A stretch of DNA of 36,332 nt, taken from positions 1 to 36,332 of the forward strand of contig NZ_JAHFRY010000030.1 in NCBI RefSeq assembly GCF_023266035.1, read 5' to 3'. The notes beneath the pieces were generated by a model that made no database searches, was not told the DNA's origin, and was given only the letters and a program-made list of their open reading frames with translations. Positions 12,092 to 36,332 of this stretch are shown here, in pieces. Position 1 is the stretch's first letter. Every line of letters starts with the position of its first letter. A program made the position numbers and the translations under genes. This DNA comes from Nevskia sp. (GTDB lineage: Bacteria > Pseudomonadota > Gammaproteobacteria > Nevskiales > Nevskiaceae).

Positions 12092-15000
12092 CTAGCTCTT
12101 TCCCTCGGACCAACGACGCGCCGCGATTTCCGCATCTTCTAGCTCGTCCTTCCGCCGCCAATAGCCGTGCTTCTCAATAAGCCGACGCGCTTCAACAAGA
12201 TCGGCTAGAGGTGATTGCCAAGGATATTGCTCTCCCTCCGCTTTCAGATGGGGAACGCCAAATAGCCGGGCGCGATACAAATGAATGTCGGCCAGCAAGA
12301 GGGGCATCGGACCACCCTCGGCTATTTCCCAAGCTTCGTCGAGGTCGCTTTGGGCGCTATTGAAACCAATGCGCGTGCCCGCGAGGCCGCTCAACCAAGC
12401 GCGAGCCAAGAGGCCGAGCGTAAGAAATTTACTCTGACCGGCTCGTCTGAAGCCTTCCACAATCTCTTGGAAAAAAAAATGAAAACTATCAAGAGGTCGC
12501 CGTTGTAAAACGCATGCAAGAAAAGCCGCTCGATCGCCTGACAACTGCAAGAATGGAGTTTGAAGTAACGGCATTTTAGTATCGTCCATTACTTGGACAG
12601 TTTGTAAGACACGCTGACAAACTTCTTGGCACTTGCCAACCAGAGGGAATGGATCGATTTTCTCTTGAAGTCCCAGCACAAACTTCCATGCTAAAAGCTC
12701 TGCAGGAGCAAGAATTAGATCACAATACTGCAATCCGGGAACGGAATATAAAAACCGAAAACTACGCACGTCCCTAGACTGAATAGTCTCAGCCTCGCGA
12801 AATCTATGCATCGCTCCAATACTATCACCGGCTTGGTGGAGGGAATCTCCAAGAGATGCGACATTGATGGAGTATGTAGCTGTCTCTTCTTCATTAAACC
12901 TAGCGTATTTTACTGATTGCTCAGCCCACTCTACTGATTGCCTAACGCCGCCAACCGCACGCTCGATCTCGCTCAGATTATTGGCAATAGTCGCTGCTCT
13001 TTTCCAAGCCCTTTGCTCGATACGCGAACTCAAAGCCATCTGAATTGGCTTGCGAGCCTCAGCCAACCGACTCAGCGCTTGCAGGCAAATCGCAACCTCA
13101 TTCAATAGCCAATCTCGTGAAGGTTGTGTCAGCAAGAGCGAAGGTTCATCCCACTGGCGATCGAAGAAGCAAGCTACGGCACCCAAATCTGAGGAAAACG
13201 CACCGAGTCTGTTTGCGGAGTAGCCTTCGTCACTTTGTTTGATACGTTTCAGATAGACCTTGTGGAACGCCTCTTCCTGCAAGCCGGCACAACAACCGTG
13301 GGCAATAGCCTGATAAAAAGGTTGCAGATCGCCGAGAGAGGGGTTTACCGGATGCGGCGTGGTTGCACATAGCAGTTTGTAAAGCCGTCTGTGCCCTGAT
13401 TGCCACGCCTCCGGGCTTTCCAGCAGAAAGAGGCGCCCGAAGTACTCACGCAGGAAGGGATGAGTATCCAGCGCAAGTAATGAACCGGCTGAATCCCGAA
13501 TCACGGTAAGTAGCTTGGCATTCTCCAATCTACTGAGCAACAGATTTAGCTTTACCCCGCTTATACCAACCAGGGTTTCATTCAATCCTGGGACAGCCGG
13601 CAGGCTTAGCAACTCATTGATGCAGCTAGCCGCCGCCGGGCGATCAAATAATCCAACGAGGCGCAGCATCGAAAGCGCTTGCTCGCCTTTCTCGCCTCCT
13701 GCTTCAAACCAGCGAACATAAGCGTCCATTACGCGAAAGCAACGACCGCCTTGCTGCTCAGCATCCGCTTCCCCAAGCTTCACGAGGTCGCGCTTGCGGA
13801 CATCGCCAGCATGAGCGTCGCGCAGGTAGCTGCCGAGCAAGTTCAAGCTAAGGGCGTGTCCCTTCACGTCTTCCACAAGTGCCGCCAACTCCCCGTTCAT
13901 CCCTTTTACGCCGAGCTTCTCGAGCAGACCGATACCTGCGCTCAGTGACAGGCGAGCCAGCTTTTCCTCTGGCGCCGTCGTCTGCCAATAAGCCCGTAAA
14001 TCTGGGATGGAATACCGCGTAGTAAGAACACATAGACCCAGATTGATTGCGGCCAATCCTTTAAGCAGGACGGCAATGCCCTGATCCTTGAACTCGCCTG
14101 GTGTCGGGGAAGCAGGTCCATGTTGCAGAGGCTCTAAACCGTCGAGTATCAGTAGAGCTCGTCGCTCACCGATGATCTGCGCCAACCGCTTGCCCTTGTC
14201 GAATACGCTCTGCGCGCTACTCGCCATGTCAGCGTCGCCGAAGAAAGTGAGGGCTGCAGCGAGAAACAGATCACTTGAGGCCGTGGTCTGCTCGCGCGTG
14301 CCCTGACTGTAGAAAGACCACGCGAAGACCGCATCGCAACCCGGCCAGCCTTGATGAGCCAACTCCGCCGCCCACTTCGCGACCAATGACGTCTTTCCTT
14401 CACCACCCAATGCTACGAATGTCAGGACATGCGGCCGCTTGTTCTCACCCCGCTCCACCTTTCCCCAAGCGTCGGCGAGTCGGCTGACTTCCATCTCGCG
14501 GCCAATGAGTTCATCCGGCGCGTACTTGACGATCCGGTCGATGTCTATTTTTCTAGCTTTTGATGGTTGGGCGCCATCGAAGGTCAGAGGTACGCCGACT
14601 TGCCGAGCCTTGGTCCTAAGCGCACCTACAGGGGACGGTTGTATACCCGACTGCCCCAGCAAGAAGTCGTAAAGGCGTTCGTACTCGTCAGATGACGTCA
14701 GTGCGTAGCAAGTACCCGAGCGTAGCGGCTCGGGAATAAACTCCTTTCCGTCGTCAGATAACAAGATCGGGACAAATTTCAATGTCCGACTACGGGCGTC
14801 ATATAGCGCCTGAGTAATCAATGCTCCCTCCCAATCGGCACCCTTACCCCGACCTGGTTCTTCGTGCCCACGGAAGCGCCGGTAGTAAGTCTGAGTGCAT
14901 ACGACGAGTACGAAGTCCGCATTATCAAGCTGATCGAGCATCCAGCGCGGCCAGCCTTGTTCTGGCGACCCTTCTACGTACAGGTCAAGAATCGTCTCGA

Positions 15001-15106
15001 CTCCCTCTGACCGAAGCCGTTCGGATAGCTGCAGAACCGTCTCTTTATGCAGATCGGAATCATGGCTGTAGCTAATGAAGACTTTTCTTTTGTTCATGTC
15101 TGACAC
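12092..15106 (-). CDS. SEFIR-STAND ATPase-TPR protein, candidate anti-phage sensor/effector
   Basis: 1004 residues in three parts. Residues 7-150 are a SEFIR (TIR-like) domain: KVFISYSHDSDLHKE, then DLYVEGSPEQGWPRWM and ADFVLVVCTQTYYRRF, with DWEGALITQ carrying Glu93, a candidate catalytic or structural acid. Residues about 195-430 are a STAND/NB-ARC-like NTPase: GRE at 202-204, P-loop GGEGKTS (234-240), Walker B RALLILDGLE (316-325), sensor-like LTTRYS (361-366) and GHALSLNLLG (416-425). The remaining half is helical with TPR-like units, clearest at about 680-800. In bacterial immunity such proteins use the repeats to sense a phage product and the NTPase to assemble the N-terminal effector. 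SEFIR effectors have been linked to NAD depletion. The GTG at 15106 has GAGA five bases upstream; ATG 15097 is the alternative. G+C is clearly lower than in the neighbours. Confidence 0.87.
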   Translation of the reverse strand: MSDMNKRKVFISYSHDSDLHKETVLQLSERLRSEGVETILDLYVEGSPEQGWPRWMLDQLDNADFVLVVCTQTYYRRFRGHEEPGRGKGADWEGALITQALYDARSRTLKFVPILLSDDGKEFIPEPLRSGTCYALTSSDEYERLYDFLLGQSGIQPSPVGALRTKARQVGVPLTFDGAQPSKARKIDIDRIVKYAPDELIGREMEVSRLADAWGKVERGENKRPHVLTFVALGGEGKTSLVAKWAAELAHQGWPGCDAVFAWSFYSQGTREQTTASSDLFLAAALTFFGDADMASSAQSVFDKGKRLAQIIGERRALLILDGLEPLQHGPASPTPGEFKDQGIAVLLKGLAAINLGLCVLTTRYSIPDLRAYWQTTAPEEKLARLSLSAGIGLLEKLGVKGMNGELAALVEDVKGHALSLNLLGSYLRDAHAGDVRKRDLVKLGEADAEQQGGRCFRVMDAYVRWFEAGGEKGEQALSMLRLVGLFDRPAAASCINELLSLPAVPGLNETLVGISGVKLNLLLSRLENAKLLTVIRDSAGSLLALDTHPFLREYFGRLFLLESPEAWQSGHRRLYKLLCATTPHPVNPSLGDLQPFYQAIAHGCCAGLQEEAFHKVYLKRIKQSDEGYSANRLGAFSSDLGAVACFFDRQWDEPSLLLTQPSRDWLLNEVAICLQALSRLAEARKPIQMALSSRIEQRAWKRAATIANNLSEIERAVGGVRQSVEWAEQSVKYARFNEEETATYSINVASLGDSLHQAGDSIGAMHRFREAETIQSRDVRSFRFLYSVPGLQYCDLILAPAELLAWKFVLGLQEKIDPFPLVGKCQEVCQRVLQTVQVMDDTKMPLLQTPFLQLSGDRAAFLACVLQRRPLDSFHFFFQEIVEGFRRAGQSKFLTLGLLARAWLSGLAGTRIGFNSAQSDLDEAWEIAEGGPMPLLLADIHLYRARLFGVPHLKAEGEQYPWQSPLADLVEARRLIEKHGYWRRKDELEDAEIAARRWSEGKS

Positions 15107-25237: not shown

Positions 25238-27505
25238 ATGTTCGCAATGCTGATGAACTGGATGAAGGCCAACAAGATCCTGCCGCAGATCTCGGATACC
25301 GAGCGGCAGGCCCTGGAAGCCGGTTCGATCTGGATCGATGGCGAGCTGTTTTCGGGGCACCCGGATTTCACCAAGATCCTCGCCGAGAACTACAACAAGC
25401 TGCCGCCCGAAGAGCAGGCTTTCATCGACGGCCCGGTGGAAGAACTTTGCCGGATGATCGATCGCTACCAGATCGGCCGTACCAAGCGCATTCCGGACGA
25501 CATCCTCGCCTTCGTGAAGCAGACCGGGATGATGAGTTTCCTCATTCCCAAGCAGTACGGTGGCAAGCAGTTCTCGATCCTCGGCATCTCGACGATCCTG
25601 GCCAAGATCAGCGCCTACAACGCGACGGTCGGCACCTTCGTGGTGATTCCGAACTCGCTGGGCGCAGCCGAGCTGATCAAGCATTACGGCACCGATGCGC
25701 AGAAAACCGCTTACCTGCCGAAGCTGGCGAACGGCGAATACGTCCCTTGCTTCGGCCTGACCGAACCCACCGCTGGCTCGGACGCTGCGTCGATCAAGGC
25801 CGATGGTCTGGTGTTCAAGGACGTCGACGGCGAAACCAAGATCAAGCTGAACTTCCGCAAGCGCTACATCACGCTGGCGCCGATTGCCAACCTAGTCACC
25901 CTCGCCGCCAAGCTGCGCGATCCGCAGAACCTGCTCGGCAAGGGCGAAGACGTCGGCATCACCTGCGTGCTCATCCACGAAGGCACGCCGGGCTTCACCC
26001 ATGGCGATCACCACGATCCGATCGGCGATCCGTTCTACAACGGTCCGCTGACCGGCAAGGACGTGGTGGTGCCGGTTGCGAACATCATCGGCGAGCTCGA
26101 TGGCGCCGGTCAGGGCTGGCGCATGTTGATGGAACAGCTGGCGGGTGGTCGCATGGTGTCGCTGCCGGCCGGTGCGATCGGTGGCGCAAAGGCGGTGGCG
26201 GCCTTCACCGGCCCGTACTCGATGGTGCGCCAGCAGTTCGGCATCGCCATCGGCCGCATGGAAGGGGTCGAGGACAAGGTCGGCAAGATCGCCGCACTCA
26301 GCTACATGCTCGAAGGCGCGCGCGTGTTCGGTTGCTCGGCGGTGGACTCCGGCCAGCAACCGCCCGTGGTGTCGGCGATCATGAAGGCCTACAGCACCGC
26401 GCTCAGTCAGGAACTGGTGATCGATGGCATGGACGTGTTCTCCGGCGCCGGCGTCATGCAGGGTCCGAACAACATCCTCGGTGCCGGCTACAAATCCGCT
26501 CCCGTCGCGGTGACGGTGGAAGGCGCGAACATCCTTACCCGCACCTTGATGATCTTCGGCCAGGGGGCGACCCGCTGCCATCCGTATGCGCTGAAGGTGG
26601 TCAACGCGGTCGAGCAGGACGATGCCTCGGCGTTCCGCAACAACCTGCTCGGCTGGATCGGCCACTTCATCGTCAACAACTTCCGCGCTGTCGGCCGCTA
26701 TCTGACCCGCGGCTTCACCGCCGGCTCGCCGGTATCGGGCCCAACGGCCACCTACTACCGTCGCCTGGCCTGGAGCGCCACGCGCTTCGCGGTACTGACC
26801 GATCTGGCGATGTTCACCATCGGCGGCAAGCTGAAAGTTCGCGGCAAGCTCACCGGCCGCTATGCCGATGCCCTGGCCTGGCAGGTGCTCGCGATCGGCG
26901 CGCTGCGCCGCTACGAGGCCGAAGGCCGCCGTGAAGAAGATCTGCCGCTGGTGCATTACTCGGTGCAGTTCGCGCTGGCCAAGGTGCAGGACGCGTTCGA
27001 AGGCATCTACGCGAACTTCGGCGGCGCGCTGGGCGCCTATCTGTCGACCGTCGGCATGTTGCTGCTACGCCTGAATCCGATCGGCGCGCTGCCGAACGAC
27101 GCGCTCAGCCATCAATCGGCCCTGGCCATCCAGCGCCCGGGCGAGCAGTTCGATCGCCTGACCCAGGATGTCTTCAAGCCGGCCGACGAAAGCCTGGCCG
27201 CAGGTCGTCTGCTCAAGGCTTTCAAGCTGATCACCCAGGCCGAGCCGGTGATCGCGAAGATCCATGCCGCGCAGAAGGACAAGGCATTGCCGCGCGGCAT
27301 CCCGGAAGAGCAGGCGCAGGCCGCCGCCAATCAGGGCCTGATCACCGCGGACGAAGCCGCCCTGGCGCGCCGCGCCTACGCGGCGCGGCTGGACGCGATC
27401 GAGGTCGACGTGTTCACACCGGAGCAGTACTTCGGCGTCATCGACTCGCAGACGGATGGCGTGGTCCACGGCGCCGTCGAGCTGAAGCGGGCCGTGAATG
27501 GCTGA
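25238..27505 (+). CDS. fadE: Acyl-CoA dehydrogenase, FadE type
   Basis: 755 residues; E. coli FadE has 814. Flavoprotein that starts beta-oxidation by making trans-2-enoyl-CoA and passes electrons towards the respiratory chain. The central acyl-CoA dehydrogenase domain shows GMMSFLIPKQYGGKQFS, the substrate loop CFGLTEPTAGSDAASI, and GQGWRMLMEQLAGGRMVSLP. VSAIMKAYSTALSQELVIDG begins the catalytic helices. A long C-terminal extension, the FadE-specific DUF1974 region, occupies about 480-755. An excellent ribosome binding site, AAGGAG, lies about eight bases before ATG 25238. Last gene of the fad operon, followed by a strong terminator. Confidence 0.94.
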   Translation: MFAMLMNWMKANKILPQISDTERQALEAGSIWIDGELFSGHPDFTKILAENYNKLPPEEQAFIDGPVEELCRMIDRYQIGRTKRIPDDILAFVKQTGMMSFLIPKQYGGKQFSILGISTILAKISAYNATVGTFVVIPNSLGAAELIKHYGTDAQKTAYLPKLANGEYVPCFGLTEPTAGSDAASIKADGLVFKDVDGETKIKLNFRKRYITLAPIANLVTLAAKLRDPQNLLGKGEDVGITCVLIHEGTPGFTHGDHHDPIGDPFYNGPLTGKDVVVPVANIIGELDGAGQGWRMLMEQLAGGRMVSLPAGAIGGAKAVAAFTGPYSMVRQQFGIAIGRMEGVEDKVGKIAALSYMLEGARVFGCSAVDSGQQPPVVSAIMKAYSTALSQELVIDGMDVFSGAGVMQGPNNILGAGYKSAPVAVTVEGANILTRTLMIFGQGATRCHPYALKVVNAVEQDDASAFRNNLLGWIGHFIVNNFRAVGRYLTRGFTAGSPVSGPTATYYRRLAWSATRFAVLTDLAMFTIGGKLKVRGKLTGRYADALAWQVLAIGALRRYEAEGRREEDLPLVHYSVQFALAKVQDAFEGIYANFGGALGAYLSTVGMLLLRLNPIGALPNDALSHQSALAIQRPGEQFDRLTQDVFKPADESLAAGRLLKAFKLITQAEPVIAKIHAAQKDKALPRGIPEEQAQAAANQGLITADEAALARRAYAARLDAIEVDVFTPEQYFGVIDSQTDGVVHGAVELKRAVNG

Positions 27506-27553
27506 TCGTTAGCACCTACTGCCGAGACGTCTGGCGGTATTCAGAGGTATTTG

Positions 27554-27586
27554 GGCGCGAGGACTGAATGGTCCTCGCGCCTTTTT
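27554..27586 (+). terminator. Rho-independent terminator of the fad operon
   Basis: GGCGCGAGGAC and GTCCTCGCGCC form a perfect 11-bp stem around the loop TGAATG, followed directly by TTTTT. It starts 49 bases after the fadE stop. This is the clearest intrinsic terminator in the window. Confidence 0.92.
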
Positions 27587-27819
27587 GTTGCCCGTCGAAT
27601 CACAAAACTCTCGGAAAATCTCCGAATATCGACTCGTCGGCTCAAAAAATGCCTCGAATTTCAATCCCGGTTCCTCGACCTGAAATGTGAAGTACCTCAC
27701 ACTGAGGAGCTTGGTCTGTAATCCGACTCATGCGGTGCAGTTCCCCTCTCAAACAATCCGAGACGGCGCCCGCGTTCATTACCCCGCTCTCGCACAACCG
27801 GAAAGAATCGCCTCCAGCC
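27587..27819. other. Leader region of the secreted-protein gene
   Basis: The 314-base gap after fadE holds the terminator above and then about 230 bases, lower in G+C, without a credible gene. It carries the CRP-type site at 27686-27701, and a TGTAAT at 27717-27722 that could serve as a -10 element. Open frames reaching back to 27730 lack homology before the signal peptide. Confidence 0.5.
27686..27701. promoter_or_regulatory. CRP/Vfr/Clp-type binding site
   Basis: TGTGA-AGTACC-TCACA is a perfect match to the TGTGA-N6-TCACA core of cAMP-receptor-protein sites, and the preceding AAA adds to the E. coli consensus. It lies 119-134 bases before the ATG of the secreted-protein gene. It suggests carbon or second-messenger control by a CRP-family regulator not encoded here. 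Confidence 0.65.
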
Positions 27820-29124
27820 ATGATCCAACCAATCTGCGCCGTCCGAACTCGCCCGGCCACCGTGCTGTTGTCCGGCTTGCTGACCCTCGGCGCGGCACTT
27901 GCCGCTACGCCTGTCCAGGCGCAGCTGCTGCCCGGCCTAAGTGGAGCAGTCACTGTCGGCTGCCCGTTCCGCGTCTATACCGCCGAACAGAAAAACACCG
28001 GTTTTCTCGACGACACCGCCACCTATGGCGTCGCCCAAATCCCGCTGTCGCTGCCGGCTGGTGCGTCGATCCGCATCGAAGGCAAGTATCCGAAGGTGCG
28101 CTACTTCTCGCTCCAGTCCTATGACGGCGCCAAGGGCGGCAACTTCATCGACGCGATGGCCGACGCCCGCATCAAGTCGATCAACGGCGTCATCACTACC
28201 CCCAACGTCGCCGAACTGCCCACCGGCGGCGCGCCGGGCGACAGCTACACGCTGACCTTGCGCTACCAGAATCCGCCCAGCAATCCGGCACAGCGCCTGC
28301 CGAACGTGCTCTATGTCGGCACCCCGGTGACCAAGGCGCTGCCGACCCGTGTTGCCCGGCAGATCAGCTATCGCATCTATCTCCCGAACCCGGGCCAGAG
28401 CTTCCTGGGTGGCGAGGAGGTACCTCGGCTGATCTATAGCGACCGCAGCGGCGAGATCGATTTCCGCAAGACGCCGGACGCCAAGAAGTGTGCTCGCATC
28501 GAGGCCGCCTCCGATGCGTCGCAGACCCCCAACCTGGGCCTGCTGCCGAACCGCAACATCGCCTTCGAGCCGATCGCGCGCACCGCCGACAAGATCGCCT
28601 ACCCGAACGGTGACTCCAACTACCTGCGGGCCGGCGCCTCGCAGCTGTACGGCAAGATCGTGGTGGTCCGCGCCAAGCGCATGGTCACGCCGCTGCTGCC
28701 ACCGCTGGTGGGGCCGACGGCCGACGTCCGTTACCTGTCGCTGTGCCAGTACCAGAGCATCAACTCGTCCGTGGTGTCCTGCTTCACCGACCGCGGCCTG
28801 ATCGTGCAGCCGGATGACTACGTGGTCTACGCGATGTCGCCGACCAAGGAGCGTCCGAGCCGGGCGGTTGCGAAGTACGGCATCAACTGGCAGCCCTGGG
28901 GTGATACCCCGGCTCAGATGCTGATCCTGCGCCAGATTCTGGCGGCACCGGGCTTCGCCGGTGACTACGCACGTGCCGTCGCCCGGCCGACCACGGCCCT
29001 GACGACCACGCTCGGCGCCTACGCGCCGGAAGTCAGCTACTGCGATGCCGACACCTTCAACGCCTACGCCCCCAGCGGCGGCGAAGTGCTGATGGCAGCC
29101 TGCAAGCTGGTCAACGCGCGCTGA
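27820..29124 (+). CDS. Unrecognised secreted protein
   Basis: 434 residues. A typical signal peptide covers residues 1-34: arginines, then VLLSGLLTLGAALAA, ending TPVQA before QLLPG. I do not recognise the mature part. It is predicted mostly beta, contains VRYFSLQSYDG and an approximate second version VRYLSLCQYQS, and about six or seven cysteines, including LCQYQS, VVSCF, SYCD and AACK, which could form disulfides in the periplasm or outside. The repeated RYxSLxxY pattern hints at two related halves; a resemblance to DUF1214-type domains is possible but unproven. ATG 27820 is chosen for the signal peptide. It is a single-gene unit between two terminators, with a CRP-type site upstream. Confidence 0.75.
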   Translation: MIQPICAVRTRPATVLLSGLLTLGAALAATPVQAQLLPGLSGAVTVGCPFRVYTAEQKNTGFLDDTATYGVAQIPLSLPAGASIRIEGKYPKVRYFSLQSYDGAKGGNFIDAMADARIKSINGVITTPNVAELPTGGAPGDSYTLTLRYQNPPSNPAQRLPNVLYVGTPVTKALPTRVARQISYRIYLPNPGQSFLGGEEVPRLIYSDRSGEIDFRKTPDAKKCARIEAASDASQTPNLGLLPNRNIAFEPIARTADKIAYPNGDSNYLRAGASQLYGKIVVVRAKRMVTPLLPPLVGPTADVRYLSLCQYQSINSSVVSCFTDRGLIVQPDDYVVYAMSPTKERPSRAVAKYGINWQPWGDTPAQMLILRQILAAPGFAGDYARAVARPTTALTTTLGAYAPEVSYCDADTFNAYAPSGGEVLMAACKLVNAR

Positions 29125-29141
29125 GTCCTTCGTCGCTCGAT

Positions 29142-29178
29142 AGCCCCTGGCTTCCGTCGCGGAGCCCGGGGCTTTTTT
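29142..29178 (+). terminator. Rho-independent terminator after the secreted-protein gene
   Basis: AGCCCC and GGGGCT pair at the base, and GGCTTCC with GGAGCC extend the stem (one mismatch and one bulge) around a GTCGC loop. Six T follow at 29173-29178. It starts 18 bases after the stop. Confidence 0.88.
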
Positions 29179-29254
29179 GTCGCCGCGATTGGCCGGCAAA
29201 GCGCGTAGCGTGCGCAGGGCGCAGTCCGCGCAAGCACAGGGTTCCGAGTCAACG

Positions 29255-30907
29255 ATGATCGCGGTCACCGAAGCGGCAAAAGCCGGGCTGTTCGCGCGGC
29301 GGCACTGGCTGCCGAACCTGATGGCCGGCTTGCTGGTCGGCGTGGTGTCGCTGCCGCTGTCGATGGCCTTCGCGATCGCCTCCGGCGTCAAGCCGGAACA
29401 GGGCTTGTACACGGCGGTGATCGCCGGCCTGATCGTCGCGTTGTTCGGCGGCACGCGGAACCAGATCGCCGGGCCGACCGGCGCCTTCGTGGTGATCCTC
29501 GCCGCCGTCACCGCGAAGTACGGCGTCGATGGCCTGATGCTCGCCAGCTTCATGGCCGGCGCGATCCTGATCGCCTTCGGCCTGGCGCGGCTCGGCAATG
29601 TCATCCGCTTCATCCCGAGCCCGGTAGTTCTCGGCTTCACCGCCGGCATCGGCCTGGTGATCTTCATCGGCCAGTGGCCTTCCTACTTCGGTCTCGCGGA
29701 CCCCGGCAGCGGCCATTTCCACGAACGTCTGTGGCGCTTGCTGCAGGCGCTGCCGAATGCCGATCCGGTGACCACGGTGCTGGCCAGCGGCAGTCTCGCG
29801 CTGATGCTGGTCGGCCCGCGCATTCCGGGCCTGTCCCGCGTGCCCGGCCCCTTGCTGGCGATGCTGGCAGCCACGCTGGTGCAGGCCTGGCTCCAGTTCG
29901 ACAGCGTCACCACCATCGGCAAAGCCTACGGCGCGATCCCGGCCGGTCTGCCGGCGTTCTCGCCACCGGTGATCACCGCCACTCGCCTCGTCGAACTGCT
30001 GCCGGCGGCGTTCTCGATCGCCCTGCTCGGCGCGCTGGAATCGCTGCTGTCGGCCGTGGTCGCCGACAAGATTGCCGGCACCCGCCACGACGCCAATCAG
30101 GAACTGATTGCTCAGGGCGCGGCCAATCTGGTCACGCCGCTGTTCGGCGGCTTCGCGGCCAGCGGTGCGCTGGCCCGCACCGCCACCAGCATCCGCAATG
30201 GCGCCACCGGCCCACTGGCGGGCATCACCCATGCCGCGATGCTGCTGGCGATCCTGCTGTTCTTCGCGCCGTATGCCGCCAACGTGCCGCTGTGCGCGCT
30301 GGCCGCGATCCTGTTCGGCGTGGCCTGGAAGATGAGCGAAATGCCGCGCCTGAAGCAGATGATCGCCACCGCGCCGCGCGGCGACATCGCGGTGCTGGCG
30401 ATCACCTTCGTGCTGACCGTGTTCGCCGACCTGATCGTCGCCGTCAACATCGGCGTCATCGTCGCGATGCTGTTGTTCCTGCGCCGCATGGCCTCGTCGG
30501 TCGCAGTCACCCGCGAGGACGACGGCGCCCGCGCCGAGAGCCTGAGCGCCGCTGGTCTCGACCTCGCCACCGCAGTCGAGATCCTGAGCATCGACGGCCC
30601 GCTGTTCTTCGGCGCGATCGGCACCCTCGAACAGGCGCTTGGTCCTCTGCCCGCCGGGCGCAGCGTCGTCATCCGCCTGCACCGCGTGCCGTTCATGGAC
30701 ATCACCGGCATCGAAGCGCTGGCCGATGCGATCGCCAGCCTGGAACGCCGAGGCCAGAGCCCGCGGCTCTGCGAGGCGAACCCGCGCGTGCTCGGCAAGC
30801 TGGTCCGCGCCGGCCTGGTGAGCCGAGACTTGCCGCATCGCTACTTCCGCACGCTAGATCTGGCGCTGGCCGACAGCGCGCTGCCGCGCCCTCAGTCACA
30901 AGTCTGA
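29255..30907 (+). CDS. SulP-family inorganic anion transporter with STAS domain
   Basis: 550 residues. Ten or more hydrophobic segments begin at NLMAGLLVGVVSLPLSMAFA. GVKPEQGLYTAVIAGLI and IAGPTGAFVVILAAV are the SulP signatures. The cytoplasmic STAS domain covers about 450-545 (EILSIDGPLFFGAIGTLEQA and VPFMDITGIEALADA). Family members carry sulfate, bicarbonate or dicarboxylates, often driven by H+ or Na+; the substrate is not evident. ATG 29255 is taken because the frame upstream overlaps the preceding terminator. The antiporter gene follows after 64 nt in the same direction. Confidence 0.92.
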   Translation: MIAVTEAAKAGLFARRHWLPNLMAGLLVGVVSLPLSMAFAIASGVKPEQGLYTAVIAGLIVALFGGTRNQIAGPTGAFVVILAAVTAKYGVDGLMLASFMAGAILIAFGLARLGNVIRFIPSPVVLGFTAGIGLVIFIGQWPSYFGLADPGSGHFHERLWRLLQALPNADPVTTVLASGSLALMLVGPRIPGLSRVPGPLLAMLAATLVQAWLQFDSVTTIGKAYGAIPAGLPAFSPPVITATRLVELLPAAFSIALLGALESLLSAVVADKIAGTRHDANQELIAQGAANLVTPLFGGFAASGALARTATSIRNGATGPLAGITHAAMLLAILLFFAPYAANVPLCALAAILFGVAWKMSEMPRLKQMIATAPRGDIAVLAITFVLTVFADLIVAVNIGVIVAMLLFLRRMASSVAVTREDDGARAESLSAAGLDLATAVEILSIDGPLFFGAIGTLEQALGPLPAGRSVVIRLHRVPFMDITGIEALADAIASLERRGQSPRLCEANPRVLGKLVRAGLVSRDLPHRYFRTLDLALADSALPRPQSQV

Positions 30908-30971
30908 TCGCCGCAGCGCTTGCTCCTGTGAGAGCCTTGGAGCCGCCGCCCGCAACCACGCTACCGACCCG

Positions 30972-32678
30972 ATGGATCTGAGCCACGAACTTCCGCTGAT
31001 CGCGACCATCTCCGTGGGCCTCGGCATCGCCTTCATCGCCGGCTTCGCGGCGATGCGCCTTGGCCTGCCGCCGCTGGTCGGTTATCTGGTCGCCGGCGTG
31101 CTGGTCGGGCCGTTCACGCCGGGCTTCGTCGCCGACAGCGAGATTGCCAGAGAACTCGCCGAGATCGGCGTGATCCTGCTGATGTTCGGCGTTGGCACCC
31201 ATTTCTCGATCCGCGATCTGTGGTCGGTGCGGCGCATCGCCCTGCCTGGCGCGATCGTCCAGATTGGCGTCGCCACCGCGCTCGGCTACTGGCTGGCGAC
31301 GGTCTGGTGGGGCTGGCCGCTCGGTGGCGCGCTGGTGTTCGGGCTGTCGCTGTCGGTGGCCAGCACCGTGGTGATGCTGCGTAACCTGCAGGACCGTGGA
31401 CTGGTCGACAGCGCCAACGGCCGCATCGCCGTCGGCTGGCTGGTGGTCGAGGATCTGGCGATGGTGCTGGCGCTGATCCTGCTGCCGGCGTTCGCCAGCC
31501 ATCTCGGCGGTACCGCAGATTCGCTGACCGTGAGCAGCAAGCCGCTCTGGTACACGATCTCGATCACCTTCCTGAAGATCGCTGCGTTCTTCGGCCTGAC
31601 CTACGCGATCGGCCTGCGGCTGTTCCCGTGGCTGTCGGCGGCGCTGCTGAAATCCGGCTCGCGCGAGTTGATCACCTTGTTCGTCACCGTGCTGGCGATC
31701 AGCATGGCCTACGGCGCTGCGGTGACCTTCGGCGTGTCGTTCGCGCTCGGTGCCTTCCTAGCCGGTGTGGTGGTCAACGAAGCCGGCCTGACCCAGCGCT
31801 TCTCCAGCCAGGCGGAAGTGCTTGAGCACGTGTTCGCGGTGTTGTTCTTCGTTTCGGTCGGCATGCTGTTCGATCCGGCCGTGCTGCTACGGCAGCCGCT
31901 GGAAGTGCTCGCGGTGCTGGCGATCATAATGGTCGGCAAATCGCTGGCGGCGCTGGCGATCGTGCTGGCCTTCCGCCATCCACTGGCCACCGCGTTGACC
32001 GTCTCGGCCAGCCTGGCCCAGATCGGCGAGTTCTCATTCATCCTGATCGGCCTCGGCGTCACGCTGGGTTTGATGCCGGCCGAAGGACGCGACCTGGTGC
32101 TGGCCGGTGCGCTGCTGTCGATCACGCTGAACCCGATGGCCTTCCGGCTGGCGGCACGCTTCGAGCGGCGCTCGGCGCAGGCGCAGGCCGATAGGCTGGC
32201 GTCGATCGAATCAATGAGCGCGCCCAGCGATCTCGAGAACCACGTGGTGCTGATCGGCTATGGCCGCGTCGGCCGGGTGATCGGCAAAGACCTGCACAAG
32301 GCCGGCCAGCGCTTCATCGTCATCGAGCGCAGCCGCGACATCGTCGATCGTCTGCGCAAGCGCGGCATCCCGGTGATTTCCGGCGATGCCGCGATTGCCG
32401 ATCTGCTGACCCAGGCGGCTCTGGATCGCGCCCGCCTGCTGGTGCTGGCGATTCCCAACGAGCTGGAAACCAAGCGCATCTTCAATCTGGTGCGCGCCGC
32501 CAACCCGGCGCTGCCGATCGTCGTGCGCGCCGAGAACGACGACGAGCTGGAGCATTTCCGCACCGCCGGCGCAGCACTGGCGCTGCTCGCCGAAAACGAA
32601 CTCGGCCATTCGATGAGCCGCTACGTGCTCGATCAGTGCGCCCAGCCCAATAAGCCATTAGCGCTAACCGCCGAGTAG
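30972..32678 (+). CDS. ybaL: YbaL/Kef-type cation:proton antiporter with RCK (TrkA-N) domain
   Basis: 568 residues. The membrane part (about 1-395) is a monovalent cation:proton antiporter-2 module with about 12-13 helices. It includes LPPLVGYLVAGVLVGPFTPG, LLMFGVGTHFS and GLSLSVASTVVMLRNL, typical of the YbaL branch. The C-terminal TrkA-N domain binds nucleotide through VVLIGYGRVGRVIGKDL and ends near residue 560. Proteins of this type are proposed to export K+ in exchange for H+. The stop lies 16 bases from the end of the oppositely oriented LuxR fragment. Confidence 0.9.
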   Translation: MDLSHELPLIATISVGLGIAFIAGFAAMRLGLPPLVGYLVAGVLVGPFTPGFVADSEIARELAEIGVILLMFGVGTHFSIRDLWSVRRIALPGAIVQIGVATALGYWLATVWWGWPLGGALVFGLSLSVASTVVMLRNLQDRGLVDSANGRIAVGWLVVEDLAMVLALILLPAFASHLGGTADSLTVSSKPLWYTISITFLKIAAFFGLTYAIGLRLFPWLSAALLKSGSRELITLFVTVLAISMAYGAAVTFGVSFALGAFLAGVVVNEAGLTQRFSSQAEVLEHVFAVLFFVSVGMLFDPAVLLRQPLEVLAVLAIIMVGKSLAALAIVLAFRHPLATALTVSASLAQIGEFSFILIGLGVTLGLMPAEGRDLVLAGALLSITLNPMAFRLAARFERRSAQAQADRLASIESMSAPSDLENHVVLIGYGRVGRVIGKDLHKAGQRFIVIERSRDIVDRLRKRGIPVISGDAAIADLLTQAALDRARLLVLAIPNELETKRIFNLVRAANPALPIVVRAENDDELEHFRTAGAALALLAENELGHSMSRYVLDQCAQPNKPLALTAE

Positions 32679-32693
32679 ATTCAGCACACGCGC

Positions 32694-32880
32694 TTAAGCC
32701 AAAGCCGCCGAGCGGCTCGACACATTGAGCTTCGCGTACAGATTCTGCAGGTGCCACTCGATGGTGGTCAGCGATACCTCGCCGTGATCGGCGAGCTGCT
32801 GGTTGTTGAGGCCGGTGGCCAGCAGCTGCAGCAGCTCGAGTTCGCGGCGTGTCAGCTTGCCAAGCAGCTTCGGCTCGGCC
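32694..32880 (-). pseudogene. LuxR-family regulator, C-terminal DNA-binding fragment
   Basis: On the minus strand the last about 60 codons read [59 protein letters not shown], stop. This is a complete LuxR-type helix-turn-helix (the MalT/AlkS-like type). No start codon or upstream domain belongs to it. Beyond about 32880 the DNA encodes the P450 fragment on the other strand. It is therefore the tail of a regulator cut by a rearrangement. AlkS/MalT-type regulators often control alkane-use genes, which fits the neighbour, but this link is inferred. Confidence 0.8.
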
Positions 32881-32883
32881 CCT

Positions 32884-33800
32884 GTCTGCCGGCATCGCGG
32901 TGCTCGACGACACCACGCTGAACGCGGTCGAGGGCGGCATCTCGATGCCGAACTTCCTCGGCATGGATCCGCCGGTGCACGACGTGCACCGCATGGCGGT
33001 CAGCCCGATCGTCGCGCCAGCCAACCTGCTGCGCTTCGAAAGCCTGATCCGCAACCGCACCCGGGATCTGTTCGACAGCCTGCCGATCAATGAGGTCTTC
33101 AACTGGGTCGACCAGGTATCGATCCCGCTGACCACGATGATGCTGGCAACCCTGCTCGACTTTCCGAGCGCGGACCGCGCCAAGCTGACCCGCTGGAGCG
33201 ACGTCGTCACCACACGTCCGGGCTACGGCCTGGTCGAAACTTGGGAACAGCGCACCGCCGAGCTGATGGAATGCCTCGGCTACTTCCAGAACCTCTGGGA
33301 CAAACGTCAGAAGCTGCCGCCGCAGGCCGACCTGATCTCGATGCTGGCCCATTCGCCGGCGATGCAGGGCATGACCCCGACCGACTGCCTCGGCATGCTG
33401 GTGCTGCTGATCGTCGACGGCAACGACACCACACGCAGCTCGATGTCCGGCAGCGCGATGGCCGCTCATCTCTTCCCGGACGAGTTCGCCAAAGCCAAGG
33501 CTGATCCCTCGCTGCTGGCCAGCATCGTCCCCAAAGTGATCCGCTGGCAGACGCCGATCTCGCACATGCGTCGCACGGCGATCGAGAACGTCGAGTTCCG
33601 CGGCCAGCAGATCAGGAAGGGCGACAAGGTGGTGATGTGGTACCTGTCCGGCAATCGTCTGGCCGAGATGCAGATCAAGGCGCTCTGGGAAGAAATGCTG
33701 AAACGCTATTCGAAGATCGAAGTGATCGGCGAACCGGTGCGGGTGCCGTCGAACCGTGATCCACGGCTACATCGACATCCAGACCCGGCTGCACGCCTGA
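32884..33800 (+). pseudogene. Cytochrome P450 (CYP153-like alkane hydroxylase), truncated and deleted
   Basis: The frame encodes a P450 from just before the C-helix ([20 protein letters not shown]) through the I-helix ([18 protein letters not shown]), ExxR-like [16 protein letters not shown] and [14 protein letters not shown]. It then jumps directly to [18 protein letters not shown], which normally follows the haem-binding cysteine in CVGNRLAE. About 35 residues, including the haem-ligand Cys, are missing between two GNR motifs. The N-terminal ~100 residues are absent, and near 33757 a frameshift separates the body from its natural end [12 protein letters not shown] (stop 33798-33800). Sequence matches to CYP153 alkane/fatty-acid hydroxylases are from memory. 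The gene cannot make a working P450. The exact 5' junction is uncertain by about 20 bases. Confidence 0.85.
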
Positions 33801-33825
33801 TCCTGCCCCGAATTCCGAGAACCCC

Positions 33826-34173
33826 ATGCCCAAGATCACCTACATCGCGTCCACCGGCACCGAACACGCGGTCGACGCCGACTGCGGCGGCGTTGCCGAC
33901 TGCGGCACCTGCCACGTCTGGGTCGATCAGAACTGGCTCGACAGGATCGGCCCGGCCAGGCCCGGGAGCGAAGCCGAGATGCTGGCACTGACCGACGGCT
34001 CGACGCCGTTCAGCCGCCTCGCCTGCCAGATCGAACTCGACGACAGCCACGAAGGCCTGGTGCTGGGGATGCCGACCGACCAGCATCGAGGCCGCCACGC
34101 CGAATTTACGAAACATCGTTCACAATATGTGCCCGCCTCCCTGATCCAGCCGCCATGCACCCGACGCCGATGA
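33826..34173 (+). pseudogene. 2Fe-2S ferredoxin with internal deletion, partner of the P450
   Basis: It starts [16 protein letters not shown], the family start, then runs straight into [18 protein letters not shown]. Normally about 20-25 residues (a strand and helix with SVMEAA) separate these. All four cluster cysteines remain: C-x5-C-x2-C, and Cys in RLACQIELD. The usual end near MPTDQH has no stop, and the frame runs about 28 further codons, ending inside the fadL start region. Ferredoxins of this type feed electrons to CYP153 P450s. Because the fold is shortened and the tail overruns, it is probably inactive, though an expressed short form cannot be excluded. Confidence 0.75.
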
Positions 34174-35561
34174 CCCCTTGCTCCCTCCTGTGTCGCCGCC
34201 TGCTCGTCGCCAGCGCCTTGCTCGCCTCGGCCACGACTGCACAGGCCGTTGAACTGGCGAGAGTCGAAGGCTTCGGCCCGGTGTCGCGCGGCCTGGCCGG
34301 TGGAGGTCTGGCGCACCCGGTCGGCGCGGCGGCGATGATGCTGAATCCCGCCGAGCTGCTGTCGATCTCCGGCGAACGCGAGGTTATGTTCCAGTTCTCC
34401 GAGCTCCAGGCGCGGATCGAGGTGATCAACAGTGCCACTGGTGAGCGCGTGCGCAACCTGGGTTACGGTGCCAACCGCGGCCCCTACGATCTGCCGGAAT
34501 TGGCCTTCGCCGTTCGCCGTGGCAACTTCGCGTTCGGCACCGGCCTGTTCGCTGCCGGCGGGTTCGGCATCGAGTACGGCCGCAACAGTTTCCTGTCGAC
34601 TACCACCACCAACAACGTCGCCACTGGTCTGCCGATTTCCTCGCGTATCGGCCAATTGCGAGTGCCGTTCGCGGTGGCCTGGCGGCCGCACCCGCAATGG
34701 CGGCTCGGTGCCAGCCTCGATTACGTCAATGCCTCGGTCAATCTGGGCAGCCTGCTCGACGCCCAGCAGGTCGGCGGCTTGATCGCCTCGGGCCGCGCAA
34801 CCGGCAGCCTGGTGCCGGTGCTGGCCGGCATCCCGAACCTGTCTGGCGCGCACTTCGGCTTCATCCGCAATAACTACCTGACTTCGGCGCTGACCAGCCA
34901 GGGCATCGGCGGCCGAGTCGGTGTCACCTGGCAGCCGACGCCAGCAACGGCGGTTGCCCTCGGCTACGAGTTCAAGACCCTGCTCGCCAATTACTCGGGC
35001 CGCGGCACGCTCACCGCGATCGACGCCGACAACAACCAGATCGTCCTGCCCGGCACCGGCAAGCTGCCGCGCCTGCAGTTCCCGGACGCCTGGCTGATCG
35101 GCATCTCGCAGCGGCTGAGCTCGCATTTCGCGGTGGTCGCCGATCTGCGCCACATGTTCTGGTCGAAGTCCTTCGGCAACACTGTGGTCAGCTTCCGCTC
35201 CGACGACGGCGGCGATCTGCGCGTCTCGCTGCCGACCGGCTTCCGCGACATCACCACCTTGTCGCTGGGCGCCGAATGGCAGTTCCTGCCGGCCTGGACC
35301 TTGCGCGCCGGCGGCTCGCACGCCTTCCAGCAACTGCAGGACAGCGGCGCGCTCAGTGCCACGTTCTCGACCACCACCCGCAACCACCTGACTTCGACCC
35401 TGGTCTGGCGACTCGCGACTTCTCACGAGCTGGGTCTGGGCATGAGCTATGGCTTCACCCCAGCGGTCAACAATCCGGGCGGCAACGTCAACAGCGTGCC
35501 GCCGATCGAAGTCCGCAACCGTCAGTTCAATCCGGTGCTGAGCTACGGCTATCGGTTCTAG
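34155..35561 (+). CDS. FadL/TodX-family outer-membrane transport protein
   Basis: 468 residues. Signal peptide up to about residue 31 (RRLLVASALLASATTAQA). The mature start VELARVEGFGPVSRGLAGGG and AAAMMLNPAEL are typical of the FadL hatch domain. The rest alternates beta strands of a 14-strand barrel and ends in the aromatic SYGYRF expected of an outer-membrane protein. FadL proteins carry long-chain fatty acids or hydrocarbons across the outer membrane. ATG 34155 is listed; ATG 34170 is equally good, and the end of the ferredoxin frame overlaps both. The position beside a CYP153/ferredoxin remnant suggests an alkane-related origin, and it could now feed the fadI-fadJ-fadE operon. Confidence 0.9.
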   Translation: MHPTPMTPCSLLCRRLLVASALLASATTAQAVELARVEGFGPVSRGLAGGGLAHPVGAAAMMLNPAELLSISGEREVMFQFSELQARIEVINSATGERVRNLGYGANRGPYDLPELAFAVRRGNFAFGTGLFAAGGFGIEYGRNSFLSTTTTNNVATGLPISSRIGQLRVPFAVAWRPHPQWRLGASLDYVNASVNLGSLLDAQQVGGLIASGRATGSLVPVLAGIPNLSGAHFGFIRNNYLTSALTSQGIGGRVGVTWQPTPATAVALGYEFKTLLANYSGRGTLTAIDADNNQIVLPGTGKLPRLQFPDAWLIGISQRLSSHFAVVADLRHMFWSKSFGNTVVSFRSDDGGDLRVSLPTGFRDITTLSLGAEWQFLPAWTLRAGGSHAFQQLQDSGALSATFSTTTRNHLTSTLVWRLATSHELGLGMSYGFTPAVNNPGGNVNSVPPIEVRNRQFNPVLSYGYRF

Positions 35562-35578
35562 GATCAGCGCGCTGCGGG

Positions 35579-36332
35579 CTAATCGACGAGGCTCACCGTC
35601 CACTCTGCCCGCGGGCCCTGCGCCAGGATCGGCGTGAGGTAGGCCAGCACCGCGCGCATCTCGGCATCGAAACCGAACGGCGGATTGACCACCAGCAGCC
35701 CGCAGGTCGACATCGGATGCTTGACCACGCCGGTGATCGGAGACGGATCGCGCGCCGGGATGTCGACCTCGATCGACAGCTGCAAAGTCGGCTTGCCGGT
35801 CTCGCGCGCCACGCGGCGCACGAAGCTCGATGCCACATGGGTGTTCTTGATCGGATACCAGGCCGCGTAGATGCCGTTGGCGAAGCGCGCGACCGATTTG
35901 CGGATCAGTTCGGACGCCGCCTCGTACTCGTCCGTACGCTCGAACGGCGGATCGATCAGCACCAGCGCGCGCTTCTCCGGTGGCGGCAGCAGGGAATGCG
36001 CTTCGTAACCATCGCGAACATGGATCGTCGCCCCCGAGCCGCGCATCGTGCGGCGTAGTTCGTCCGCCACTTCCTCGATCTTCTCGCAGAGGATCAAGCG
36101 ATCCCCGAGCACCGGCCGCAGCATCTGCTGCGCCAGCCGCGGCGACCCCGGATAGAAGCGGCAACCACCGTCGGCATTGCCCGCCCGTACCAGTCGCAGA
36201 TAAGCCGCGACCGCTGGCGGCGTCGACGGCGCATAGACCGAGATGCCGGCAAAGCGCCCGATGCCATCGCGCCACTCGCCCGTGCGATCGGCCACCGGAT
36301 CACCCAGATCGTAATCGCCGGCACCGGCATGG
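35579..36332 (-). CDS. rlmJ: 23S rRNA (adenine-2030-N6)-methyltransferase RlmJ (5' end outside window)
   Basis: 251 codons are visible; the frame is open at the window end. The first visible residues, HAGAGDYDL, belong to the SAM-binding motif I that lies some 40-50 residues into the family. VLIDPPFERTDEYEAA carries the DPPF catalytic motif of N6-adenine methyltransferases, followed by AAWYPIKN and GLLVVNPPFGFDAE. It methylates A2030 of 23S rRNA. It converges on the FadL gene with a 17-base gap between the stops. Its start codon lies beyond base 36332. Confidence 0.93.
   Translation of the reverse strand, partial: HAGAGDYDLGDPVADRTGEWRDGIGRFAGISVYAPSTPPAVAAYLRLVRAGNADGGCRFYPGSPRLAQQMLRPVLGDRLILCEKIEEVADELRRTMRGSGATIHVRDGYEAHSLLPPPEKRALVLIDPPFERTDEYEAASELIRKSVARFANGIYAAWYPIKNTHVASSFVRRVARETGKPTLQLSIEVDIPARDPSPITGVVKHPMSTCGLLVVNPPFGFDAEMRAVLAYLTPILAQGPRAEWTVSLVD

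Follow-up and report, generated by a model that had tools for sequence, protein, structure and literature searches.

The window analyzed here is an entire contig of 36,332 bases (G000:C148) from a 4.5-Mb Nevskia genome that is assembled in 243 contigs and 96.8% complete, and it was compared with the genomes of its genus (18, the window's own genome counted in). DNA alignment shows most of the contig to be collinear with genome G002, in which the locus carries, in this order, a gene resembling cation/proton antiporters, a MalT-like regulator of 978 amino acids on the opposite strand, a CYP153 cytochrome P450 of 418 amino acids, a ferredoxin and a FadL protein; the alignment of G010 shows the same gene order across the locus. 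The antiporter-like gene, the window copy of which matches the Pfam models Na_H_Exchanger and TrkA_N, and the rlmJ gene align without gaps to both G002 and G010, and small insertions and deletions with respect to G002 are spread across the remaining contig. The features of the locus in the window are collected in table 1.

Table 1. Features of the CYP153 locus, in coordinates of the window
Feature	Position	Strand	Remarks
C-terminal remnant of the MalT-like regulator (LuxR-type HTH)	32664..32900	-	About 79 of 978 codons; collinear with L037 13417-13654; 1-bp deletion near 32883 and premature stop
Junction of the 2.94-kb deletion	32898..32900		Regulator fused to P450 codon 85; BLAST coordinates; no ancestry switch
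CYP153 pseudogene remnant	32900..33800	+	Residues 85-337 and 373-418 of the G002 protein (418 aa); final ~14 codons frameshifted
E296K in the ExxR motif	33533..33535	+	GAA to AAA
Haem-loop junction	33649..33657	+	105 bp gone between CGGCAAYCG repeats; doubles as left edge of the diverged tract
Diverged (putatively imported) tract	33655..34676		G010-like island inside at ~33859-33943
Frameshift, 1-bp insertion	33756..33756	+	Near the C-terminus of the P450
2Fe-2S ferredoxin remnant	33826..34173	+	Fer2 match; original end 34086; stop lost; 28 added codons
60-bp deletion in the ferredoxin	33871..33882	+	Bounded by imperfect TCGACGSCGA repeats; ancestry unchanged across it
FadL/TodX-type outer-membrane protein	34155..35561	+	Pfam Toluene_X; frame open; recombinant, 5' part in the tract and 3' part native

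Identity above 40% is the usual criterion for placing P450 proteins in the same family. The intact homologue of G002 is 61% identical to CYP153A7 (PDB 3RWL; 251 of 409 aligned residues), the chains of which are also the best matches of the window remnant, and the retained 5' part of the latter is 93-95% identical to G002 and G010; judged by these identities, the remnant is a CYP153 by descent. The G002 homologue resembles CYP153A alkane hydroxylases also in adjoining a ferredoxin, a FadL protein and a MalT-like regulator, whereas the window copy differs from these enzymes in lacking residues 1-84 and the haem loop, in its mutated ExxR motif and in its frameshift.

The P450 frame of the window passes directly from SGNR to LAEMQ, with the joint lying in CGGCAATCG. 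Relative to the six closest homologues in the genus (those of G002, G010, G011, G012, G014 and G015), 35 residues or 105 bp are absent, including the haem cysteine; in all six these 35 residues separate SGNR and LAE. An earlier note, which had claimed that YLSGNR is joined directly to the following sequence with about 35 residues and the haem cysteine gone, and which had proposed alignment with intact CYP153 genes of close relatives as a check, is borne out by this comparison, except that its second motif, VGNR-LAE, has LGNR in the six homologues. The lost segment corresponds to residues 338-372 of the G002 protein, Cys368 among them. Among the best 80 of at least 595 confirmed matches in a scan of genome contigs, a set from which the window's own genome may be left out, every locus has Cys at G002 position 368 and no gap across 338-372 when aligned to the intact G002 protein, and the joined motif SGNRLAE occurs in none of the 80. 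A first check of the haem motif covered whole loci, which may include a second P450, and its repetition on the best alignment alone gave the same result. The haem-ligand loop FxxGxxxCxG, present in the six homologues of the genus and in these 80 other loci, is missing in the window remnant; the earlier note would have yielded to a haem cysteine elsewhere in the protein, and no haem loop was found in the rest of the remnant. In G010, CGGCAACCG occurs twice, 9 bp each, at a spacing of exactly 105 bp, in agreement with the claim that the join falls at repeated GNR codons, and SGNR/LGNR repeats flank the haem loop in most of the CYP153 genes examined.

The frame stays open, as had also been said, over an ORF of 380 codons. 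For the further expectation that automatic annotation may call this ORF a functional P450 the evidence is mixed: its score with the Pfam p450 model is 15.4 bits, below the cut-off of 22.8 (the intact G002 protein scores 70.2), and no NCBIfam model reaches its cut-off either with the ORF or with the intact G002 protein; one P450 model nevertheless gives E 1.6e-90 with the ORF, so that annotation based on similarity could label the remnant a P450 all the same.

The loss of the haem loop is one of several lesions in the module. Most of the divergent regulator (whose G002 protein matches the MalT and GerE models), the region between the two genes and P450 codons 1-84 were removed by a deletion of 2939 bp with respect to G002 (2933 bp with respect to G010). 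With codons 1-84 deleted and the frameshift at 33756, the P450 of the window keeps neither its own start nor its full-length frame, and its retained part shows KVIRW in place of EVIRW at the ExxR motif together with G257D before NDTT. The ferredoxin has lost 60 bp between imperfect 10-bp repeats as well as its stop. Given these further lesions (codons 1-84, frameshift, ExxR, ferredoxin and regulator), the idea of an otherwise functional gene with a single in-frame loss was rejected, and the CYP153 module of regulator, P450 and ferredoxin is almost certainly a dead relic, a pseudogene and no new kind of protein.

The pattern of substitutions in the P450 remnant was assessed by counting codon changes, with sites having gaps or three states excluded and with G012 (76% DNA identity) excluded from both codon and ancestry counts. 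In the codons of 32900-33655 the window branch carries 10 synonymous and 16 nonsynonymous changes, versus 8:3 for G010 and 13:2 for G002, together 21:5 (Fisher p 0.004 against the window). Elsewhere the ratio along the window branch is 44:4 in the antiporter-like gene, 24:6 in rlmJ and 15:7 in the 3' part of fadL. The nonsynonymous share expected for random change in the P450 is 69-74%, and that found in the window is 62%. Such codon counts show the substitutions of the remnant to be near-neutral, and they fit a scenario in which purifying selection would have ended part-way along the window branch. Under a stricter count, which requires agreement among five relatives, the ratio is 3:11 on the window branch, 3:1 on that of G010 and 7:0 on that of G002; this count is less clear-cut because of the ratios found on longer branches, namely 17:14 for G015, 10:11 for G011 and 11:10 for G014.

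What goes beyond the earlier note is that, in comparison with the relatives, the haem-loop junction coincides with a switch in ancestry. Compared with G010, the window is 93-97% identical in each of the four segments that precede 33649. The value is 85.9% at 33658-33800, 94.4% at 33826-33950 and 76-87% in the segments from 33951 to ~34680, a tract that is not uniform; it then rises to 93-98% up to 35400, and the final segment has 88% (94% to G002). G010 and G002 are 94-97% identical to each other up to 34085 and 89-95% in fadL. A two-edge scan of the sites at which the window differs from both G002 and G010 places the diverged tract at 33655-34676 (~1.02 kb), with edges that extend, within 2 log-likelihood units, over 33642-33700 on the left and 34674-34689 on the right. 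The gain of this tract is 70 log-likelihood units versus 10.9 in the best of 200 shuffles, which were stepped by 10 and thus more coarsely than the observed scan, stepped by 3. A control scan of G002 versus G010 gained 14.8, with its edges elsewhere (34033 and 35475); this value lies above the shuffles, which indicates that rates are uneven along the region and in fadL, though far less than in the window tract. Differences private to the window amount to 28 of 749 sites before the junction and to 19 of 142 in the stretch immediately following (p 3e-5); the frequency of those between G002 and G010 remains unchanged over the junction (29 of 749 and 5 of 142).

Phylogenetic trees show the same switch. 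Upstream of the junction the window clusters with G002 and G010 (98/96), whereas at 33658-33800 it clusters with G011 and G014 (95/97, from 143 columns; the AU test gives the upstream grouping p 0.022 there), and after 34677 it is again placed with G002 and G010 (100/100). Since G002, G010 and G015 form a group to the left as well as to the right of the junction, the window is the lineage that has changed. For the fadL part of the tract (34220-34676) the native grouping is compatible with the data (AU p 0.37), but the window branch is longer there (0.16) than in the 3' part of the gene (0.03); G015, which is without a fadL match at the locus, is omitted from the fadL trees. At 34601-34676 the window is 91% identical to G016 and 74% to G010. 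Just to the right of the junction, the closest potential donor among the genomes compared reaches 88.7% identity. A paralogue in the window's own genome was rejected as the source of the tract, for 33650-35561 matches there, besides itself, just one stretch of 39 bp; local hypermutation was rejected on the grounds that at informative sites the window goes over to the other side, and that it clusters with different species.

The earlier note had attributed the missing loop to an in-frame deletion by recombination between short repeats. The loss of 105 bp at the repeated GNR codons agrees with this, but the deletion is not a lone lesion, and the change of ancestry at the junction (33655, within 33642-33700) makes recombination between repeats within the gene insufficient as an explanation by itself. 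Given the switch at the join, the latter has the appearance of an imported tract's border, misjoined at the 9-bp repeat, rather than of plain slippage within the gene. We infer the following sequence of events: DNA from a related species would have recombined into the locus, with one crossover in homologous fadL sequence, while at the other end the SGNR codons of the recipient would have been joined to the LGNR codons of the donor at the 9-bp repeat, 105 bp out of register. On this evidence, the locus is probably a decayed CYP153 hydroxylase module in which the haem-loop scar stems from recombination with the DNA of a related species, misjoined at the 9-bp repeat. The narrower proposition, that a single recombination between species both cut out the catalytic loop of the P450 and joined the imported DNA at the codon-phased SGNR/LGNR repeats, has in our judgment about an even chance of being right; if true, it would mean that exchange between homeologous sequences is able to remove the active site from members of this P450 family while the frame is kept. 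The P450 may already have been dead before the recombination.

The proposed event resembles homology-facilitated illegitimate recombination (HFIR), which, in the passages of PMC3240628 that deal with it, inserts ~1 kb of foreign DNA with one end homologous and the other at a short repeat while recipient DNA is lost, as would be the case here. The same passages give micro-homologies of 3-10 bp in most cases, a removal of ~1 kb on average, an E. coli study in which 3 of 4 junctions were without homology, and a frequency 100 to 10^6 times below that of homologous recombination. There are differences, in that HFIR as described in these passages has one homologous end whereas both sides are homologous to the recipient here, just 105 bp were lost, and the event is read from sequence and was not observed. 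Mosaic tracts with short segments are reported in passages on natural transformation in PMC13344027, and mosaic transformation of this kind could explain why an island at 33859-33943 is G010-like.

The main competitor of the misjoined import separates the two events: ordinary slippage between the GNR repeats, or a deletion from one to the other, would have cost the recipient or the donor its haem loop, and the tract would have been imported independently, its edge falling there by chance or because strand exchange halted at the 105-nt mismatch. Plain deletion does happen in this module, as indicated by the two other deletions that lack an ancestry switch (the one at 32900 and the one between imperfect 10-bp repeats of the ferredoxin), both of which look like ordinary deletions. 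However, the edge of the tract is confined to an interval of 58 bp that contains the junction, and we consider separate events a possible but rather unlikely account. An assembly chimera, in which the contig would join two related populations at 33655 and/or 34676 while the loop is intact in the organism, could be suspected from the draft state of the genome (243 contigs) and from the ancestry switch at the junction itself. It is improbable, since the repeats have just 9 bp in common, which is shorter than the usual assembly k-mers, and since three features located outside the tract (the excess of amino acid changes, the substitution E296K and the deletion of 2.94 kb) would not be produced by such a join. 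Finally, the retention of a haem-less protein of P450 fold with a new role, like EryCII or DesVIII, is extremely unlikely: an open frame of 380 codons does persist, and the model of P450-derived glycosyltransferase activators, TIGR04515, matches a part of it at E 6e-14, but this match is generic, given that intact G002 matches the model better (1e-25), and reaches 52.2 bits against a cut-off of 343; residues 1-84 and the native start are missing, the C-terminus is frameshifted and the ferredoxin broken; no glycosyltransferase was found in a Pfam scan of the 7 proteins of 27730-36331; and the near-neutral substitutions together with the TIGR04515 score speak against a functional protein. EryCII and DesVIII (TIGR04515) share with the remnant the condition of a P450 homologue without the haem cysteine, but they are whole proteins with a partner glycosyltransferase whereas the window holds a truncated and frameshifted remnant; passages of PMC3391682 describe how an added N-terminal helix of EryCII makes the partner contact and how its K, K' and L helices are conserved.

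Apart from the coincidence of the deletion with the ancestry switch, its sole unusual feature, the P450 of the window is an ordinary pseudogene. Two further CYP153-like genes in the same genome (L043 and L044), which are 55% and 50% identical to the remnant, have intact haem and ExxR motifs, so the loss may perhaps be tolerated; a DNA search found no second copy of this P450 in the genome, its three matches being the remnant itself and two sequences at 69-70%. The gene is present in 7 of the 18 genomes of the genus, the window's included (DNA search, at least 76% identity), and from this distribution the module looks dispensable. The homologue of G015 (L041, G015:C73:12500-32000) has an in-frame TAG, EVIL in place of EVIR and Cys in place of Arg just before the haem Cys; judging from these changes it seems to be decaying too, and independently. 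No title or abstract opening among the papers listed on CYP153 pseudogenes or on CYP153 in Nevskia names the locus. The locus calls for caution where a survey takes fragments of CYP153 as a measure of the capacity to degrade alkanes, for it matches by homology although the haem ligand has been lost, and it offers a readable fossil of how a gene that lies at the border of an imported tract of related DNA may be inactivated by the import.

Other differences from G002 are scattered along the contig. At 35562-35579, next to the module, ~1.2 kb found between fadL and rlmJ in G002 and G010 is missing from the window; this segment holds a DUF7064/DUF7065 gene and an ORF of 96 amino acids. The DUF7064 protein occurs in 5 of the 18 genomes and was not found in that of the window; its gene is present in G002, G010 and G015, and by this distribution the segment would have been lost in the window rather than gained elsewhere. 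Identity to G002, profiled in bins of 250 bp, is low in just one further run (72-87% per bin), at 27501-28500, around the start of a 464-amino acid gene without Pfam match (27730-29124). Between conserved neighbours that directly adjoin each other in G002 (11952 joins 15307), the window has a gene of 1004 amino acids at 12092-15106 on the minus strand. Its SEFIR/TIR domain scores above the Pfam cut-off, matches to NACHT/AAA and TPR are weak, and it is possibly an inserted defence gene of the STAND type.
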